DNA from: Prochlorococcaceae cyanobacterium jk18x1bzbins.87
GTDB taxonomy: Bacteria > Cyanobacteriota > Cyanobacteriia > PCC-6307 > Cyanobiaceae
Assembly (NCBI GenBank): GCA_022826535.1
Contig: JAJDUS010000104.1
Location: 1-34,730 of the forward strand
DNA: 34,730 nt
Direction of reading: 5' to 3'
The notes beneath the pieces were generated by a model. The model was given only the letters and a program-made list of their open reading frames with translations. It ran no database searches and was not told the DNA's origin. The position numbers and the translations under genes are program-made. This document shows, one piece after another, positions 2,944-22,234 of the stretch; within the stretch, counting starts at the first letter, position 1; every line of letters starts with the position of its first letter.

Positions 2944-3705
2944 TCACCTGTTAGCGTCAGATGTTTGCAGGGAAGAAAGTGCTGTGGCCAGGGGGTGCCT
3001 GGCCGGCACCCCCACAGCACGTGGATAGGGGACCGGGCAGGACATCTGTGGTTCCAGCACCAGCACATGGCGCTGGCCGCGCTGGCGGGGAAGCAGACAA
3101 CGCTCCCTGGCCCGGATCCGACAACCCAACTGCTGGGCTGCCCGTTGCAAGGCCTGGTGATCCTCGGCGCTCCAACGCCCCCGATACAGGAGGGCCAAGC
3201 CACAGGGACCCAGAAGGGGCGCCAGATATTCCGCCACCACCGGCGCCGCCGCCACCCCTCGCGCCACCGCCAAATCAAACCGGCCACGATGGTGGGCATC
3301 CTGGCCCAACACCTCAGCCCGTTCGCACACCACCTCCACCCGCGCCTTCAGGCCAAGGGCATTGGCCATGGCCTGGACCGCAGTGCATTTATGCTGCACC
3401 GAGTCCACCAACACCCAGTGGCTCTGCGGTAGCGCAATGGCCAGCACCAAGCCTGGAATGCCGCCGCCGGTGCCCACATCCACACCCCGCAGGGGACCAT
3501 GGAACGGGGGGTCCAGGCGGGTGAGGGGCCACAGGGAGTCCTGCACCTGGGCCACCCAATAGTCATCCCCCTCCACAAGCCTGGTGAGATTGCAGCGGCT
3601 ATTCCACTGGCGCAGTTGCTGTTGCAAGAGCACCAAGGCCTGACGCTGGGCTGGAGACAGGGGGATCAATTTCACCTTACCTTCAGGGGACAAATGGGAA
3701 AACAA
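2944..3705 (-). CDS. rsmG: 16S rRNA (guanine-527-N7) methyltransferase
   Basis: Methylates N7 of G527 in 16S rRNA using SAM. The 253-residue protein has the RsmG/GidB glycine-rich SAM loop VDVGTGGGIPGL near residue 96, then the acidic strand WVLVDS and the conserved FDLAVARGVA segment near residue 145. It ends in YPRAVGVP, as in other cyanobacterial RsmG, plus a non-conserved tail of about 20 residues. The ATG at 3705 gives a normal N-terminus. It is transcribed toward the sucrose-phosphate synthase; upstream lies the palindrome-rich patch at 3.74-4.07 kb. Confidence 0.93.
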   Translation of the reverse strand: MFSHLSPEGKVKLIPLSPAQRQALVLLQQQLRQWNSRCNLTRLVEGDDYWVAQVQDSLWPLTRLDPPFHGPLRGVDVGTGGGIPGLVLAIALPQSHWVLVDSVQHKCTAVQAMANALGLKARVEVVCERAEVLGQDAHHRGRFDLAVARGVAAAPVVAEYLAPLLGPCGLALLYRGRWSAEDHQALQRAAQQLGCRIRARERCLLPRQRGQRHVLVLEPQMSCPVPYPRAVGVPARHPLATALSSLQTSDANR

Positions 3706-3895
3706 AGATGCAAGCCAATAGCATATTCGATGTAAGTCTCAAAACACCAGGGCACCACGAAAATAGGGCAGCTTCCCCCTGCGGGATGTTGTCTCACCAT
3801 GGGAAAGTCAGTCCTGGAGAGAGGTTGCCTGGACCAGCAGACGTTTCCATGGGAGGAGGGATGCAATTTTTCGTGGTGCCCACCAGGGACACACC

Positions 3896-3992
3896 GGGAA
3901 ACCCCTTTCCGGCTCAGTCCTGGCTTTTGAAAAGCCTTGCTGTAAGAGAGGAGTGAGAGTCTTCTGTGACAGCGTTTTGAAGTTTTCCAGGG
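3896..3992 (-). repeat. Mini-element copy A (inverted)
   Basis: This 97-bp stretch is, on the minus strand, nearly the same as 5868-5965 inside the IS5-type transposase, with about ten differences. Both carry the central palindrome GGCTTTTGAAAAGCC. Copies in opposite orientation in unrelated places mark this as a mobile small repeat. Confidence 0.8.
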
Positions 3993-4023
3993 TGTTCCTG
4001 GTGAATTGAGGTGATTGAAGAAA

Positions 4024-4067
4024 TGACACCAGAAGGAATTTTTTCCAGGAAAATTTTCCTGGTGTCA
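4024..4067. repeat. Long hairpin with perfect 18-bp palindrome
   Basis: TGACACCAG at 4024 pairs with CTGGTGTCA ending at 4067, and inside it lies the perfect palindrome CCAGGAAAATTTTCCTGG (4045-4062). It could be the end of a small mobile element or a bidirectional terminator between the divergent-looking flanks; there is no clear U-tract to favour the terminator. Confidence 0.6.
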
Positions 4068-4385
4068 CTTTGGGATGGCGCTTCAACAATTTCAGTGAAC
4101 TATCCGGTGTTGGGGAGCCGATACTTGACTTGCCATTTGCCCATTGGGAGGATGTTTAGCCTATGGGGGCATTGGGCTACTTTGTGTGGACACCACATCC
4201 AGAACGCCCCCAGGGCCAGCAGGTCTCAACTCTTAAAACTGTCCCATGCCAGCCTCTGGCGACGCCACTGGAACCCATCCCACCCATGACCGGACACGGA
4301 ACATTCGTGGTTGAGACAGGGGTGCCCATGGTGTGCTGGTATGGTTGCGCAGCAGGACGACCATTTCACCCCGGACGGCATGGGA
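4068..4385. other. Intergenic, nothing recognised
   Basis: About 320 bp between the hairpin and the stop of the pseudouridine synthase. Short open frames exist on both strands but none has recognisable protein character, and no RNA gene signature was seen. Confidence 0.5.
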
Positions 4386-5126
4386 TTACTGCCCCTTCTT
4401 CTCCAGTAGGAGGTCCATGTCATCGGTGGCCAGCCAGCGCCAGGCGCCGCTCGTCAGGGAACCCAATGGCAAGGCGCCAAGCGCCAAACGCTGCAGACGC
4501 CGTACCGGATGGCCAAGCTGGTGAGCAATGCGCCGAATCTGACGCTTCCGCCCTTCCCGCAACACAATCCGCAAACAGCTTCCCTGGGCAGTGCGGTGCT
4601 CCAGTTCAATCTGGGCGGGCCTGGTGCGGTGACCATCCAGCACCAGCCCGGACCGCCAGGCTGCCAGACTGGCCCCGTTGGGGATCCCCTCCAGCCAGAC
4701 CCGGTAGGTCTTGCTGTGGCCATGGCGGGGGTGGGTGAGGCGCAGGGCCAGATCACCGTCATTGGTGAGCAGCAGGGCGCCTTCGCTATCCCGGTCCAGC
4801 CGTCCCACGGGATAGAGCCCTTGTCTTGCAGCGGGGGACAACAGGTCCAGCACAGTGGGGCGGCCATGGGGATCGCGGCAGGTGCAGAGCACCCCAGGGG
4901 GTTTGTGGAGGAGCAGGGTGCGGCGTTGCTGCTGCTGGGCAGCCGCCAAGTGGAGCAGTTGGCCATCCAGGGTGATGGAGTCCACCCCCACCACAGCCCG
5001 GTCCCCAGGTCGTGCGGGTTGGCCGTTGAGATGGAGGCGGCCGGCTTTGAGGAGGGCATCAGCCTGGCGGCGAGACAGAACCCCAGCCCGGGACAGGAGC
5101 TTTTGCAAACGTTCAGGGGCGGTCAT
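4386..5126 (-). CDS. rRNA pseudouridine synthase, RsuA/RluB/RluE family
   Basis: Isomerises specific uridines in rRNA to pseudouridine. An N-terminal S4 RNA-binding domain (about residues 4-60, RLQKLLSRAGVLSRRQADAL) is followed by the RsuA-type catalytic domain with the active-site motif GRLDRDSEGALLLTNDGD, whose second Asp is the nucleophile, and the later REGRKRQIRRI motif typical of this subfamily. Length (246 residues) is normal. I chose the ATG at 5126 (MTAPERLQ), where family similarity begins; an in-frame ATG at 5147 would add seven residues. The exact target position (23S or 16S) cannot be read from sequence. An IS5-type remnant lies just upstream. Confidence 0.9.
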   Translation of the reverse strand: MTAPERLQKLLSRAGVLSRRQADALLKAGRLHLNGQPARPGDRAVVGVDSITLDGQLLHLAAAQQQQRRTLLLHKPPGVLCTCRDPHGRPTVLDLLSPAARQGLYPVGRLDRDSEGALLLTNDGDLALRLTHPRHGHSKTYRVWLEGIPNGASLAAWRSGLVLDGHRTRPAQIELEHRTAQGSCLRIVLREGRKRQIRRIAHQLGHPVRRLQRLALGALPLGSLTSGAWRWLATDDMDLLLEKKGQ

Positions 5127-5346
5127 GGGGGACAATCCACTGGCCATTCCACAATGACAAGAACCTGACCAGCAATTTTCAGGCTACTGACCTCAACTGG
5201 AATCATGGCCACAGCACCCATATGGTATATTGAAACAAGTATGTTAAGAAAGTCTGGAAAACCCCAAAGGGACCCCTGCTCTCCCCCCAGCCGCCTGAGG
5301 ATGGTTAGACTAAGTGTGAATGGGGATGGAAGGACAGGTGGAATCA

Positions 5347-6442
5347 AGGAGCAGCAGTTAGGGTTCAGCGACTGGGAGCGTAGCGCTGTGAGGAAGTAGA
5401 CCAGGAAAGAGAAGCTCCTCTGTGAGATGGAGGCAGTGCTGCCGTTCTCAACTCTGGTGAAGATGATGCAGCCTTTCTATCCGCAAGTGGGACCACAAGG
5501 CAGAAGACCCCCCTATGGGTTGGAGACCATGCTACGGATTCACCTGATGCAGAACTGGTGGTCCCTGAGGGACGACACCATTGAAGACGCCCTGATTGGC
5601 ACCGGCGCCATCCGCCGCTTCGCCGGGATTGATCTTGCCAAAGATAACATTCCGGATACCACCACCATCTTGGCGTTCCGCCATGTTGTGGAACAGCATC
5701 ACTTGGCCAAGGAGATCTTCAAGACGGTGGAGCAGTACTTGGAAGAGAAGGGCCTGCTGCTGCGGGAGGGCACAGTAGTAGATGCCACCATCATCCATGC
5801 TCCCACCTCCACAAAGAATGAGAAGAGGGACCGGAAACCACAGATGCACCAAACCCGTAAAGGAAAGCCTGGAAAACTTCAAAGCGCTTCCACAGAAGAC
5901 TCTCAACTCCTCCTCTTACAGCAAGGCTTTTGAAAAGCCAGGACTGAGCCAGAAAGGGGTTTCCCAGTGTTTCCTCAAGGGAACCAGTGGTTCTTTGGCA
6001 TGAAGATGCAGATTGGGTGGATAAGGATTCCGGTTTGATCCACTCTGTATCCACCACAGCGGCTCATGTCAGTGATGTAGTGGTGGCAGCAGAGCTATTG
6101 CATGGAGAAGAGAAGGTGCTCTATGGGGATGCTGGCTACCAAGGTCTTGAGAAGCGAGAGGAGATGACAGGACGAGAGGTGGACTGTCGTATCGCCATGG
6201 GGCCAGGGAAGCGCCGCCACCTGTCTGATGATGGAGAAGGGGCCGTACAACGGTGGATAGAGCGTGCCAAGGCCCATGTCAGAGCCAAGGTGGAGCATCC
6301 CTGACCGGTGCTCAAGCAGCAGTTTGGGTTTCGGAAAATCAGGCGACGGGGCCTGGCCAAAGACCACAGCAAGGTGATGGTGTTAGGGACCCTGACCAAC
6401 TTATTCTTGGGGAGGAAGAAGTTATTAGGGATGGTAACATAG
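5347..6442 (+). pseudogene. IS5-family DDE transposase, multiply disrupted
   Basis: Similarity to IS5-type transposases starts at KEQQLGFSDWERSAVRK, passes an in-frame stop at 5397-5399, and continues with MEAVLPFSTLVKM, the LRIHLMQNWWSLRDD segment, the catalytic-type GTVVDATII segment with its first Asp, and MHQTRKG. There a 113-bp foreign piece interrupts the gene. It resumes at NQWFFGMK, loses one base near 6012-6017, continues with VDKDSGLIHSV and LYGDAGYQG (second Asp region), hits another in-frame stop at 6302-6304 after VEHP, and ends in LTNLFLGRKKLLGMVT. The element therefore cannot make an active enzyme. The last 17 residues are repeated in the remnant at 11.16 kb. Confidence 0.88.
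5864..5976 (+). repeat. 113-bp mini-element (copy B) inserted in the transposase
   Basis: Removing this piece, together with one copy of the flanking 4-bp repeat AAGG (5860-5863 and 5977-5980), restores the transposase sequence TRKG-NQWFFG exactly. That is what a transposition event with a 4-bp target duplication leaves. The ends are imperfect inverted repeats (CCTGGAAAAC against ACTGGGAAAC), and the middle has the palindrome GGCTTTTGAAAAGCC. Copy A lies inverted at 3896-3992 and a more diverged relative at about 14.87-14.98 kb. It has no coding capacity, so it must be moved in trans. Confidence 0.8.
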
Positions 6443-6597
6443 GAGGAGTGTGTCAGCCCATTGTTCTGAGACCGCTATCAAGCCCAAGCAGGGCCATTCC
6501 AAGGACAATATACAGTGGTTTGACCCTCAAGAAGCTCCTTGAGAGAGACAAGAGAGCAGCTCCACTAATTACCCTCCTGGTTGATACGGTTTCCCAG
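6391..6597 (+). repeat. IS5-type element right part, copy 1
   Basis: About 207 bp that is roughly 90% identical, same orientation, to 11164-11369. It begins inside the transposase C-terminus (CCTGACCAACTTATTC) and runs about 155 bp past the stop codon. The well-kept tail beyond the gene is longer than IS5 elements usually have. Confidence 0.85.
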
Positions 6598-6604
6598 CGG
6601 TTCC

Positions 6605-8005
6605 TTAAGTCCCTGATCTGATCATTTTCCGGCAAAGAACAAATGTACCCCGCTCTTCTTGGCAACTCCAGCCCAAGCCTTGGATATGGGTCATGATGGC
6701 CACAGTATGCTGTTGGCTCAACTTGCCTGGGCTGTCAGGATTCAGCAAAACAACATCCAACTGAACCAGTTGTTCCGTGGTTGGGAGCCGATCACGACTT
6801 TGCTTTAGGGACTGTACCAGTGATCGATGACTTAAATGGGGAATCAGATAATCATGTGTTAAGACTGCGGAACTGTCAGATATGTTGGCAATAACCTGTT
6901 GAGCCGTTTGCACTTGATCTACTCTTGATAGATAGCGGTCAAAGAAATATCCCGGCTTGGCCAACAGTGCCCAAGACAGGGTTGCCCACAAATAACACAA
7001 CCAAAGCCGTTGTGCAAGCCAGAGCCGACCCTGGCGCAGGTCGGCAGTCAGGCCATCCATACTGGCCACAACCAAAAGAACAGCCAGGGGAAGATTGTAG
7101 TGATGGACAACATCCTGCTGGGATTCCCAGGAGGAGAGGCTATTTGCAATCAGCAGAGGTAGTGTTGCCGCAAGCAAGGGGAGGGAAGGGCGGCGCCAAT
7201 AGAAGGCCAGAGGTAAGATGAGCAGAAACAGATAGAAGAGAATATTCACCCAATCCAAGGCCCCGAGAAACTCCATTGGGCTGAATAGTGCATTCCGGAG
7301 ACTATCGCCAACATCATTGCCAAGATGTCGATACCGCCCAAGGGCTCCTGGCCCAACGCCGTTATTGAGGACGGGATACAGACCCTTGGCCAGCAACAAG
7401 AGCCAGCCTGCCCCCAGCACCAGCGCTTCCACAGCCCAGCGCCAGCGCCGGCGCCAGGCCTGCTCCAGGGACAGGCCCACCACAATCAGACCGAGCCCAT
7501 CCCGGCAGCCCATCATGAGCAACAGAGAGAGGAGCCAAAGCCAACGCCGCTCAGCACGGTTGGCCCAAATGGCCAAGGCCAGCAGGGGCATGGCCCAGGT
7601 TTCCGGACGGAAATCAACAACAAAGCTGGCATTAAATACGACTGGCTGGAGCCACCACAACCCACAAATCAGCCACCGCTCCCGTGGCTTCAGGCCTGCC
7701 TGCACACCCAAATGCCACAGGGGCCAAGCTGTAAGAATCAACCCCAGCGCCTGGGTGAGAAATAACCAGTGTACCGATGGAGCCAGCCAGTATAGCGGGG
7801 CAATGGCATAGAACATCCAAGCCCCATGGTTGCCCATGTGGTGTAGCCCCAGGAGGGTGGAACGGGGCTCCAGCCCTTGGCTCATCTGCCAGGCCACTTG
7901 GTCATAGATCCCCAGATCCCAGCCGGCACTGTGGAGCAAGGCGTGCCTGAGCGCCTGCAGACCGTAAAACAGACCAACCAGCAGCGCGGAGACCAGCCAG
8001 AACAT
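6605..8005 (-). CDS. DUF2079 polytopic membrane protein
   Basis: A membrane protein of about 466 residues with roughly ten hydrophobic segments through the first 390 residues and a soluble C-terminal part. The N-terminal motif GWDLGIYDQVAWQ followed by LGLHHMGNHGAWMF is the hallmark of DUF2079, a family related to GT-C glycosyltransferases whose substrate is not known. I prefer the ATG at 8005 (MFWLVSALLVG), directly before the first membrane helix; the frame stays open to 8083, but that extension (MIHFPILF...) is not conserved in character. The final residues lie against the right end of the IS5 element, so the natural C-terminus may have been slightly altered. A possible ArnT-type glycosyltransferase is divergent at 8378. 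Confidence 0.82.
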   Translation of the reverse strand: MFWLVSALLVGLFYGLQALRHALLHSAGWDLGIYDQVAWQMSQGLEPRSTLLGLHHMGNHGAWMFYAIAPLYWLAPSVHWLFLTQALGLILTAWPLWHLGVQAGLKPRERWLICGLWWLQPVVFNASFVVDFRPETWAMPLLALAIWANRAERRWLWLLSLLLMMGCRDGLGLIVVGLSLEQAWRRRWRWAVEALVLGAGWLLLLAKGLYPVLNNGVGPGALGRYRHLGNDVGDSLRNALFSPMEFLGALDWVNILFYLFLLILPLAFYWRRPSLPLLAATLPLLIANSLSSWESQQDVVHHYNLPLAVLLVVASMDGLTADLRQGRLWLAQRLWLCYLWATLSWALLAKPGYFFDRYLSRVDQVQTAQQVIANISDSSAVLTHDYLIPHLSHRSLVQSLKQSRDRLPTTEQLVQLDVVLLNPDSPGKLSQQHTVAIMTHIQGLGWSCQEERGTFVLCRKMIRSGT

Positions 8006-8112: not shown

Positions 8113-8280
8113 TTAGGCCTTGATGGGGAGCAGCACTTCCCCCACCGCTCTCACCTCTGCGCTACTCCCCTGGATTTCAGCCTTCAGCTCATCAAATCGC
8201 CTGCTCTGTCCAGCTCCAGGATCATCAAACCGTTTGTCCAGCTTGTGTACCCAAAGGTCGTACCACCACGCAGAAAAGAT
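8113..8280 (-). pseudogene. Remnant of a small coiled-coil protein
   Basis: On the minus strand a frame reading WWYDLWVHKLDKRFDD, then SRRFDELKAEIQ and AVGEVLLPIKA, ends at a stop at 8113-8115. Repeated KRFDxL/RFDELKAEI units are typical of short coiled-coil proteins behind a membrane anchor. No convincing start codon or membrane segment precedes it, so it looks like a 3' remnant. Identification is tentative. Confidence 0.35.
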
Positions 8281-8377
8281 CTGCTTTGGGAGGGGCGTGG
8301 GAATTTTCTGTGGACCCGTCTTGAGAGTATCCAGGCTTTCCGTGGCGTAGCGTTCACCTGCCTCCCTTCAAGAACAG

Positions 8378-14865: not shown

Positions 14866-14976
14866 TTAAAGCCTGAAAAATTCTCTCTGGCTGAGTTCGG
14901 GCCTTATGAGAAGCCCTTGCTACGAGAGACGCGAGGATTACAAGGGCTTCAAAAAAACGGCCGCACGGCTCTTTCC
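14866..14976 (-). repeat. Diverged relative of the mini-element (copy C)
   Basis: GGCTGAGTTCGGGCCTTATG and the following AGAAGCCCTTGCTACGAGAG resemble the same part of copy A (GGCTCAGTCCTGGC, GAAAAGCCTTGCTGTAAGAG) at roughly 70% over about 55 bp, including the central inverted repeat. Resemblance fades outside that core. The rest of the 234-bp gap before clpR shows nothing. Confidence 0.45.
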
Positions 14977-20557: not shown

Positions 20558-20733
20558 AGCTCTGGATCAGGGGCCATGGGGGGAAAGCCTCTGTGGGAGA
20601 GGGCTGTTATGCTCCAGCAGGCTCCTCAGCCTGGGACAAGGCAGTGTCCCCAGGGCCACCACCAGGGAGGGGGGAATCTTCCCAAATCGGCCATCACCCG
20701 ATTCAGGATCCGTGTCGTTCACACAAGGGGAAG
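20558..20733 (+). repeat. Structured intergenic repeat, copy 1
   Basis: From CAGCTCTGGATCAGGGG to GTGTCGTTCACACAAGGGG this 176-bp stretch matches 24547-24757 in the same orientation. It folds into several short hairpins: CAGGCT-CCTC-AGCCTG, GGGACA-AGGCAG-TGTCCC and AATCGG-CCATCAC-CCGATT. It could be a small RNA gene, a MITE, or both. It lies between cobD and an IS982-type remnant. Confidence 0.65.
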
Positions 20734-20773
20734 GCCCCTCAGAAAGGCCCTGGTTTGGTGCTGTTCGCTGCCT

Positions 20774-21480
20774 TGATGGATGACTGTGCCCAGCTCTGCC
20801 AGGACTGGCAGCAGCATCACTTGATCCCCTCAGACCGTCAGCGCCAGCGACCAGGCAAGCTCTCCCTCGGCGAGGTGCTCTTCAATGGTGGCGCTCTTCC
20901 CTCTCTCCCCCGACAAGGACCTCAAGCATTTCTGCCGCTATGGGGTGGGGCCGGGGTCCGCCACCCTTTGCTGAGCTTTCCCGGCACCAGCAGGTTTGTG
21001 GTCCTGCTAGGGCTGGCCCAACGGGTGCCAGCCCTATGGGCGGGTTCTTTGGCTTCAAGCTCCATCTGCCCATCAACCACCGGGGCCAGATCATGGCCTT
21101 CAAGATCACAGGGGGCAATGCGGGATGCCCGCCAACCGTTGGAGCCCATGACGGTGCTCTACGGGGCAAGTTCGTCGGCAATACGAGGATACATTGTCAA
21201 GCCCCTCATGCAACGCCTATGGCAGCAGGGTCTGAATCTGCTCACTGGCTGCTGCACCATGAAGAACCTCCTCCTCCCTCTGCTGGACAAGCGACTGCCG
21301 AGAAAACGATCCGGCATTGAAACCCTCTTTGCCACGCTGAGGTCAGAGATGGGGCTGGAGCACAGCCGCCACTGCTCTCTCATCAATGGCTTTGTCCATC
21401 TCCTCTCCTGCCGGGCGGCCTGCTCCCTCTGGCCCCAACCAGGGTCAACATTGGCACAGTCGCCATCCCTGATCGCTCTT
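20774..21480 (+). pseudogene. IS982-family transposase, frameshifted
   Basis: Pieces in different frames line up with IS982 transposases in the right order: an N-terminal CAQLCQDWQQHHLIPS and KLSLGEVLF, then DKDLKHFCRYGVG, then MGGFFGFKLHLPINHRGQIM-AFKITGGN (the strongly conserved FGFKLH block), and finally MKNLLLPLLDKRLPRKRSGIE and LRSEMGLEHSRHCSLINGF. At least two frame changes (near 20885 and 21185) and a missing first catalytic Asp region show it is dead. Clear terminal repeats were not found. Confidence 0.82.
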
Positions 21481-21502
21481 GACCTTATCCGGAACTGGGG
21501 GT

Positions 21503-22234
21503 TCAGTAGGCACCATTGTCCTTGGGGAAGAGCACCACCCCCACGGTGCGCCAGAGAATCGCCAGATCCAACAGGAGGGATCGTCGCGAAATGTACCGCA
21601 AATCCAGGGCAACTCGCTGGGCATAGGTGAGGTTGTTGCGCCCTGATACTTGCCAGAGCCCCGTCAAGCCTGGCCGCACGGACAACACCTGATCAATTGC
21701 CTCCCCATAGCGCTCCACCTCCGCCCGCACAATGGGGCGTGGCCCCACCAGGCTCATCTCACCCCGGAGAATATTGAGAAACTGGGGCAACTCATCCAGG
21801 CTGGTGCGCCGCAGCATGCGCCCCACAGGGGTGATGCGGGGATCATTTTTGAGCTTGAAGCGATGATGAAAATCTTCCCGAAGCCGAGCAGAGTTTTTCA
21901 AAGTGGTACGCAATTGGCGATCCGCCCCCTGCACCATGGTGCGAAACTTGATGCAGCCAAAAAGCTTGTGATTCCACCCCAATCGGCGCTGTACGTAGAA
22001 GAGTCCCCCGGGGGAACTGCACCAGACTGCCAGCGCCACCACCAGGAACAGGGGGGCACCCATCCCCAGGGCCAGGCCAGCCACCGTGATGTCCATCAGG
22101 CGCTTGAGCCGTTGACTGCGGAGCAACCGCCCCGCCATGGCACCCCACCATGGTGTTGCCCGGGGTGCTGGCCACCAGGACCGGCCATGGACAGGGGGCT
22201 GACCATCCACACGCGGCAGCACCCGGATGTCCAT
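21503..22234 (-). CDS. Polyprenyl-phosphate sugar-1-phosphate transferase (WbaP/ExoY type)
   Basis: Starts an envelope polysaccharide by moving a sugar-1-phosphate from its nucleotide onto undecaprenyl phosphate at the inner membrane. A single hydrophobic hairpin (about residues 50-75, [20 protein letters not shown]) is preceded by SQRLKRLMD, and the bacterial sugar transferase domain follows with [44 protein letters not shown] and [13 protein letters not shown]. At 243 residues it is the short, catalytic form without the large WbaP N-terminal part. ATG 22234 (MDIRVLP) is preferred; ATG 22249 is also in frame. The GT4 gene ends 12 bp upstream, so the two form an operon. Confidence 0.93.

Follow-up and report, generated by a model that had tools for sequence, protein, structure and literature searches.

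The 113-bp element that lies within an IS5-type transposase gene of the cyanobacterium jk18x1bzbins.87 very probably belongs to a genus-specific family of MITEs that is mobilised in trans by IS5-family transposases of the same genome. Its identity as a MITE, which had been suggested in a first-pass annotation of this DNA, is supported by the number of its copies, by their terminal inverted repeats and 4-bp duplications, and by the empty sites, and the family is a new one, ordinary in kind and most likely IS5-driven. The window (the whole stretch of 34,730 nucleotides that was analysed) is contig C25 of a genome of 2,490,333 bases in 145 contigs; it has a GC content of 58% and encodes phycobilisome linker proteins, a cyanobacterial mark. 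The presence of a 113-bp insert in the transposase gene, already described in the first-pass annotation, was borne out, and its interval was corrected to 5862-5974. The locus contains the following features:

5244-5247, plus strand: left duplication TTAA of the window insertion sequence (IS), an exact pair with the right flank
5248-6604, plus strand: degraded IS5-type IS hosting the MITE (about 1240 bp without it), delimited by an end scan and end comparison
5427-5933, plus strand: 5' part of the IS5-type transposase gene (NF033581 transpos_IS5_4, E 4e-42 over 5427-5855; PF05598 DUF772, E 8e-15)
5858-5861, plus strand: left target duplication TAAA of the MITE, placed by the family-wide duplication register (the uninterrupted sites at C131, C72 and C64 read GTAAAGGG there)
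5862-5974, plus strand: MITE copy of 113 bp, with ends GGAAAGCCTGGAAAAC... and ...GTTTCCCAGTGTTTCC (profile E 3e-35, all 111 model positions)
5925-5939, no strand assigned: central palindrome GGCTTTT-G-AAAAGCC, with its centre base at 5932
5975-5978, plus strand: right target duplication TCAA, with one mismatch to TAAA, placed by comparison of flanks and empty sites
5987-6304, plus strand: 3' fragment of the same transposase (NF033581, E 1.2e-21 over 5990-6304)
6605-6608, plus strand: right duplication TTAA of the window IS, an exact pair with the left flank

Both pieces of the interrupted gene are NF033581 transposase (E 4e-42 and 1.2e-21), which assigns the IS to the IS5 family. Its ends are GAAAGTCTGGAAAACCCC (left) and, as reverse complement, GGAACCGCTGGGAAACC (right), the left one being shorter than the family end by one G. 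Among five ISs with both ends visible, only the window IS has an exact duplication (TTAA/TTAA); three of the four bases are alike at C110, and the flanks at C131, C109 and C90 are unmatched.

The palindrome GGCTTTTGAAAAGCC, also noted earlier, was found in the element and supplies the TGA at 5931-5933 that stops the 5' frame of the transposase. The claim that deletion of the insert restores the transposase held in part: when 117 bp (the element and one duplication) are removed, the frame is joined again over the insertion point as ...TRKGNQWFFGMK..., but further stops are present downstream. Reading is regained at the insertion point only, without a working gene, and because of these additional stops in the joined frame the interrupted IS copy looks like a pseudogene regardless of the MITE. 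The 117-bp insert is frame-preserving, and the copy at 5862-5974 exceeds the 111-bp model of the family by 2 bp. The predicted empty site is matched over 42 bases, with up to nine substitutions, at 20 other places in the own-genome stretches searched (selected for MITE or transposase matches), and three of these matches (C131, C72 and C64) are identical to the prediction.

Copies, ends and target sites of the family

Dozens of copies are dispersed over many contigs of the genome. A search of the whole genome with the element, with scores computed for 40 of the 78 initial candidates, found at least 58 places: 40 long matches (the element itself included) and 18 short ones, which are the palindrome read on the opposite strand. 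A 35-base core with up to three mismatches gave 45 genome matches and none for its reversed control, and the two end patterns gave 40 and 38, against none for controls. The copies are mostly 110-115 bp long, too small for a transposase gene, and their flanks differ among many contigs. A profile search in 218,080 bases of own-genome DNA, a non-random sample since it was chosen for MITE or transposase matches, recovered 66 pieces, of which 55 are nearly complete. The window holds four pieces, namely the copy described above and the following three:

3887-3997, minus strand: second MITE copy, inverted (98 of 107 columns identical, profile E 4.8e-35), with flanks CCAG/CTGG
8269-8341, minus strand: decayed MITE remnant, left two thirds (28.2 bits with the sister profile, 23.1 bits with the own profile)
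14867-14940, minus strand: decayed MITE remnant, right half (20.4 bits with the sister profile, 17.0 bits with the own profile)

The first of these is the inverted copy previously reported 1.9 kb from the element, now confirmed and with its full extent defined; no target duplication was found in its flanks (CCAG/CTGG). A diverged copy had also been reported near 14.9 kb, and it is real (20.4 bits, when the best of 50 window shuffles reached 10.3 with the sister profile and 9.8 with the own profile), but it represents half an element only. The remnant at 8269-8341, absent from the earlier account, is nearer to the sister-species type than to the own type, and it too scores above the best of these shuffles. 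Its match with the sister profile covers 8273-8341, and that of the 14.9-kb remnant covers 14868-14928.

Outside this genome the family is sparse. The own-genome consensus matches nine of ten genomes of the genus, with zero to four significant matches in each sister genome, against dozens in its own, although such a search would undercount diverged sister copies; sister matches of at least 100 bases are 72-87% identical to this consensus. When the best four candidates per genome were scored with a sister consensus, nine of 201 family genomes matched, all within the genus, and none of the 191 family genomes outside the genus did. No match was found in the phage records searched with the element, and in a wider contig scan a 21-base core gave two single matches (Phaeodactylibacter and Robiginitalea), about what chance would give by estimate, not by control. 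The family would then be approximately as old as the genus and would have expanded in the jk18x1bzbins.87 species.

The family ends were defined as GGA...TCC and its consensus duplicated site as the 4-bp YTAR. With this register, 14 of 52 copies have an exact 4-bp pair, against 3.3 expected (z 6.3) and no more than 10 in any of 2000 shuffles, and 133 of 208 positions of the flanking 4-mers match, compared with 97.2 (sd 5.7) in shuffled pairings. The AAGG duplication initially assigned to the element was a register error, the actual 4-bp site being TAAA (5858-5861) and TCAA (5975-5978): in the AAGG register 108 of 208 positions match and exact pairs fall to eight of the 52 copies (3.6 expected, z 3.6), which led to its rejection. 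The apparent AAGG is due to the fact that element and target alike continue with GG past the site. A shift of the register by one base still gives z 5.3 or 4.5, an effect expected from overlap, but only eight or six exact pairs. A scan of duplication length in 55 copies gave z 6.3 at 4 bp; the other lengths reached -1.4 (2 bp), 1.5 (3 bp), no more than 1.4 (5-9 bp) and 2.3 (10 bp). An exact duplication is lacking in 38 of the 52 own copies, and in sister-species copies exact 4-bp pairs are present in six of 17 rows (two rows are the same locus). The terminal inverted repeats are imperfect in the own genome (GGAAAGCCTGGAAAAC and GGAAACACTGGGAAAC) and perfect over 17 bp in the sister copies L113 and L121. 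An extension of the target to CC-YTAR-GG was discarded, as it becomes weak once abutting copies are taken out (44 copies).

IS5-type ends and mobilisation

According to the first-pass annotation, the IS5-type ends do not match those of the element, a statement that the comparison with the rest of the family overturned: the termini of the window IS are identical to those of some MITE copies over 22 bp at the left and 17 bp at the right. The left end coincides in 22 of 22 bases with the copies at C64, C19 and C8, and the right end in 17 of 17 bases, plus one duplication base, with those at C59 and C8. The ISs at C133 and C97, both with CTAG as left flank, start with GGAAACACTGGAAAACCTC immediately after it and are identical over 19 bases to the sister copies L111, L113, L120 and L121. 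The IS5_4 transposase (NF033581) has 67 matching pieces in the genome, many of them short, the longest open frames among them being of 324 aa (C48), 289 aa (C90) and 276 aa (C72). The visible end of the C48 IS, GGAACCTCTGAATAAG, differs from the MITE-matching ends, and the C133 transposase frame, in an IS visible at its left end, is 236 aa long. Elsewhere in the genus, a 328-aa IS5_4 frame is present at C24 of genome G004. Full-length IS5-type elements with matching ends are the putative autonomous partners of the MITE, and the earlier doubts about its parent and its ends are largely resolved. An origin by internal deletion from the tested ISs was rejected: with a best E of 0.065, the MITE interior showed no resemblance to any of 13 sequences taken from 12 loci of IS5 type.

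The element (about 111 bp, with no transposase gene) would be one copy of the genus-specific family, and its ends, of the type GGRAANNCTGGRAAAC, would be recognised by IS5-family transposases produced from full-size ISs. The transposase would excise or copy the MITE and then insert it at 4-bp YTAR-like targets, duplicating them, and the copy at 5862-5974 would have inserted into a transposase gene carried by an IS with the same end type. Both mobilisation in trans and the transposase lineage responsible are what we infer from the sequences compared.

It is very unlikely that the repeat is instead a conserved non-mobile unit (a small RNA, a protein-binding site or a REP-like site) spread by recombination, with only an incidental likeness to IS ends. 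An interior conserved between species (the 72-87% identity of the sister matches of at least 100 bases) and the palindrome in the middle of the element would fit such a unit, but it is contradicted by the 4-bp duplications, the empty sites and the ends identical to IS ends, as well as by an Rfam search of 3700-6800 that found nothing at E of 1 or below and by DNA folding without excess (z -0.45, 0.03 and -1.15 for the own consensus and the two window copies). The sister consensus does fold strongly as DNA (z -5.0), because of its long terminal repeats. An RNA gene was rejected on the basis of the absence of Rfam matches and of excess folding of the own consensus. That a different IS family supplies the transposase, sharing ends and target with the MITE by chance, also seems highly improbable: a DDE_Tnp_1_3 transposase is encoded in the window as well (20593-21630) and many of the IS5-type copies are fragments, but IS5-type ends already match the MITE, in an end comparison confined to IS5-type elements, and YTAR is the site that IS5 is reported to duplicate (excerpt of PMC10359306). 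That the insert is a product of local rearrangement or gene conversion limited to the locus at 5862-5974, as an inverted copy only 1.9 kb away might suggest, has a negligible probability and was ruled out by the dozens of copies (40 long and 45 core matches) with differing flanks across many contigs.

Abutting insertions and the palindrome centre

Two features are less ordinary than the MITE itself: its abutment on IS5-type ends at 4 bp, and a palindrome centre base that switches between C and G mainly where the arms are perfect. Among the 110 flanks of 55 MITE copies, 10 have an IS5-type end that begins exactly 4 bp away. Offsets 0-3 and 5 yielded no such end, and the remaining offsets, up to 41, yielded three; in the same stretches the background rate is about 5e-4 per position (with an author-chosen threshold and a score matrix that combines six typed IS ends with the ends of MITEs). 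The abutting copies are located at C41:29883, C19:7956, C109:40777, C90:1440, C91:1280, C72:17695, C69:2478, C133:14130, C127:1857 and C93:712. Those at C90, C91 and C127 have their other flank in common, so that the ten cases amount to about eight events. The abutting MITE and IS5-type end look as if they had one duplication in common.

Transposase remnants, searched with four reference proteins, lie within 240 bp of at least 16 of the 55 copies, and on both sides of at least four. At C127 a second MITE in opposite orientation occupies the same transposase site as the window insertion, and at C109 an IS and its abutting MITE lie jointly between two TTAA. Two MITEs are split at CAAG by IS5-type ends (C77:13013-13861, GGAACCTCTGAATAAG; C70:9649-9711, GGAAACGCTGGAGAACC); a palindrome-seeking IS, suspected from these split copies, was dismissed, the insertions at CAAG just before the palindrome being ordinary nesting. 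Insertion scars of the MITE/IS5-type family are probably good targets for the family, and the exact 4-bp spacing from IS5-type ends suggests that each scar is itself a favoured target.

Among the 48 copies that were aligned, 27 carry G at the palindrome centre, 20 carry C and one carries A, when the median of 75 interior columns is two variants among the 48 copies. Perfect arms are found in 19 of 20 C-centre copies versus 12 of 27 G-centre copies (Fisher p 4e-4), and outside the arms C and G copies are equally diverged (mean 5.0 and 4.8 changes, with six variable columns excluded). No association was found between the centre and the variable terminal columns 4, 6, 7, 18 and 21 (Fisher p 0.5-1), and it is weakly associated with column 58 (p 0.03) and also with column 85, which belongs to an arm (p 0.01). 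The centre carries no tree signal (14 changes, when shuffled labels average 15.3), whereas columns 4, 6 and 18 at the termini follow the tree. A tentative and rather doubtful explanation is that the centre is a one-base flip-flop, in which perfect arms would allow repeated C/G inversion via a hairpin or template switch and mutated arms would lock it, mostly at G. This explanation is weakened by column 99 (A/G), which is equally erratic (15 changes versus 14.2); besides, the arm test was post hoc, and in a draft assembly read-level hairpin artefacts could mimic switching.

Comparison with known systems

The present family adds to the known MITEs one with a clear candidate parent in a presumed sponge-symbiont Synechococcus. 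Genome size, GC content and draft state point to the 'Ca. S. spongiarum' type, and a literature search by titles and abstract openings found no MITE report for this group. Its dozens of copies, against zero to four in sisters, make it a case for studying a MITE expansion that hits its own helper. Nezha, judging by its title alone in the reference list of PMC10969869, is also a cyanobacterial MITE. In Porphyromonas gingivalis, BrickBuilt and MITEPgRS likewise have terminal repeats common to several IS5-family ISs, and one BrickBuilt copy has its terminal repeat in common with an adjoining MITE, but according to the excerpt of PMC4596501 these elements differ in their ends (GAGAC...), in a variable duplication length and in the minisatellite interior of BrickBuilt. 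IS711 of Brucella likewise uses a YTAR target, although it duplicates TA only, and it is reported to favour Bru-RS, a short palindromic repeat found in that genome too (as stated in the excerpt of PMC2266754); Bru-RS and the jk18x1bzbins.87 MITE are likened here by description, not by sequence.

A close analogue is the pair formed by MITEPsy1 and ISPsy2 (IS5 family) in Pseudomonas syringae. MITEPsy1 is described in the excerpt of PMC3189936 as a non-autonomous element of 100 nt that duplicates CTAG or YTAA; its terminal repeats, 18 nt long, closely resemble those of an IS5-family IS, and its mobility was demonstrated by trapping. The likeness is one of description rather than alignment, host and sequence being different. 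The same source gives six intact copies of MITEPsy1, compared with dozens of the jk18x1bzbins.87 MITE, which, unlike MITEPsy1, is found inside and beside IS5-type elements and whose mobility is deduced, whereas MITEPsy1 was trapped.
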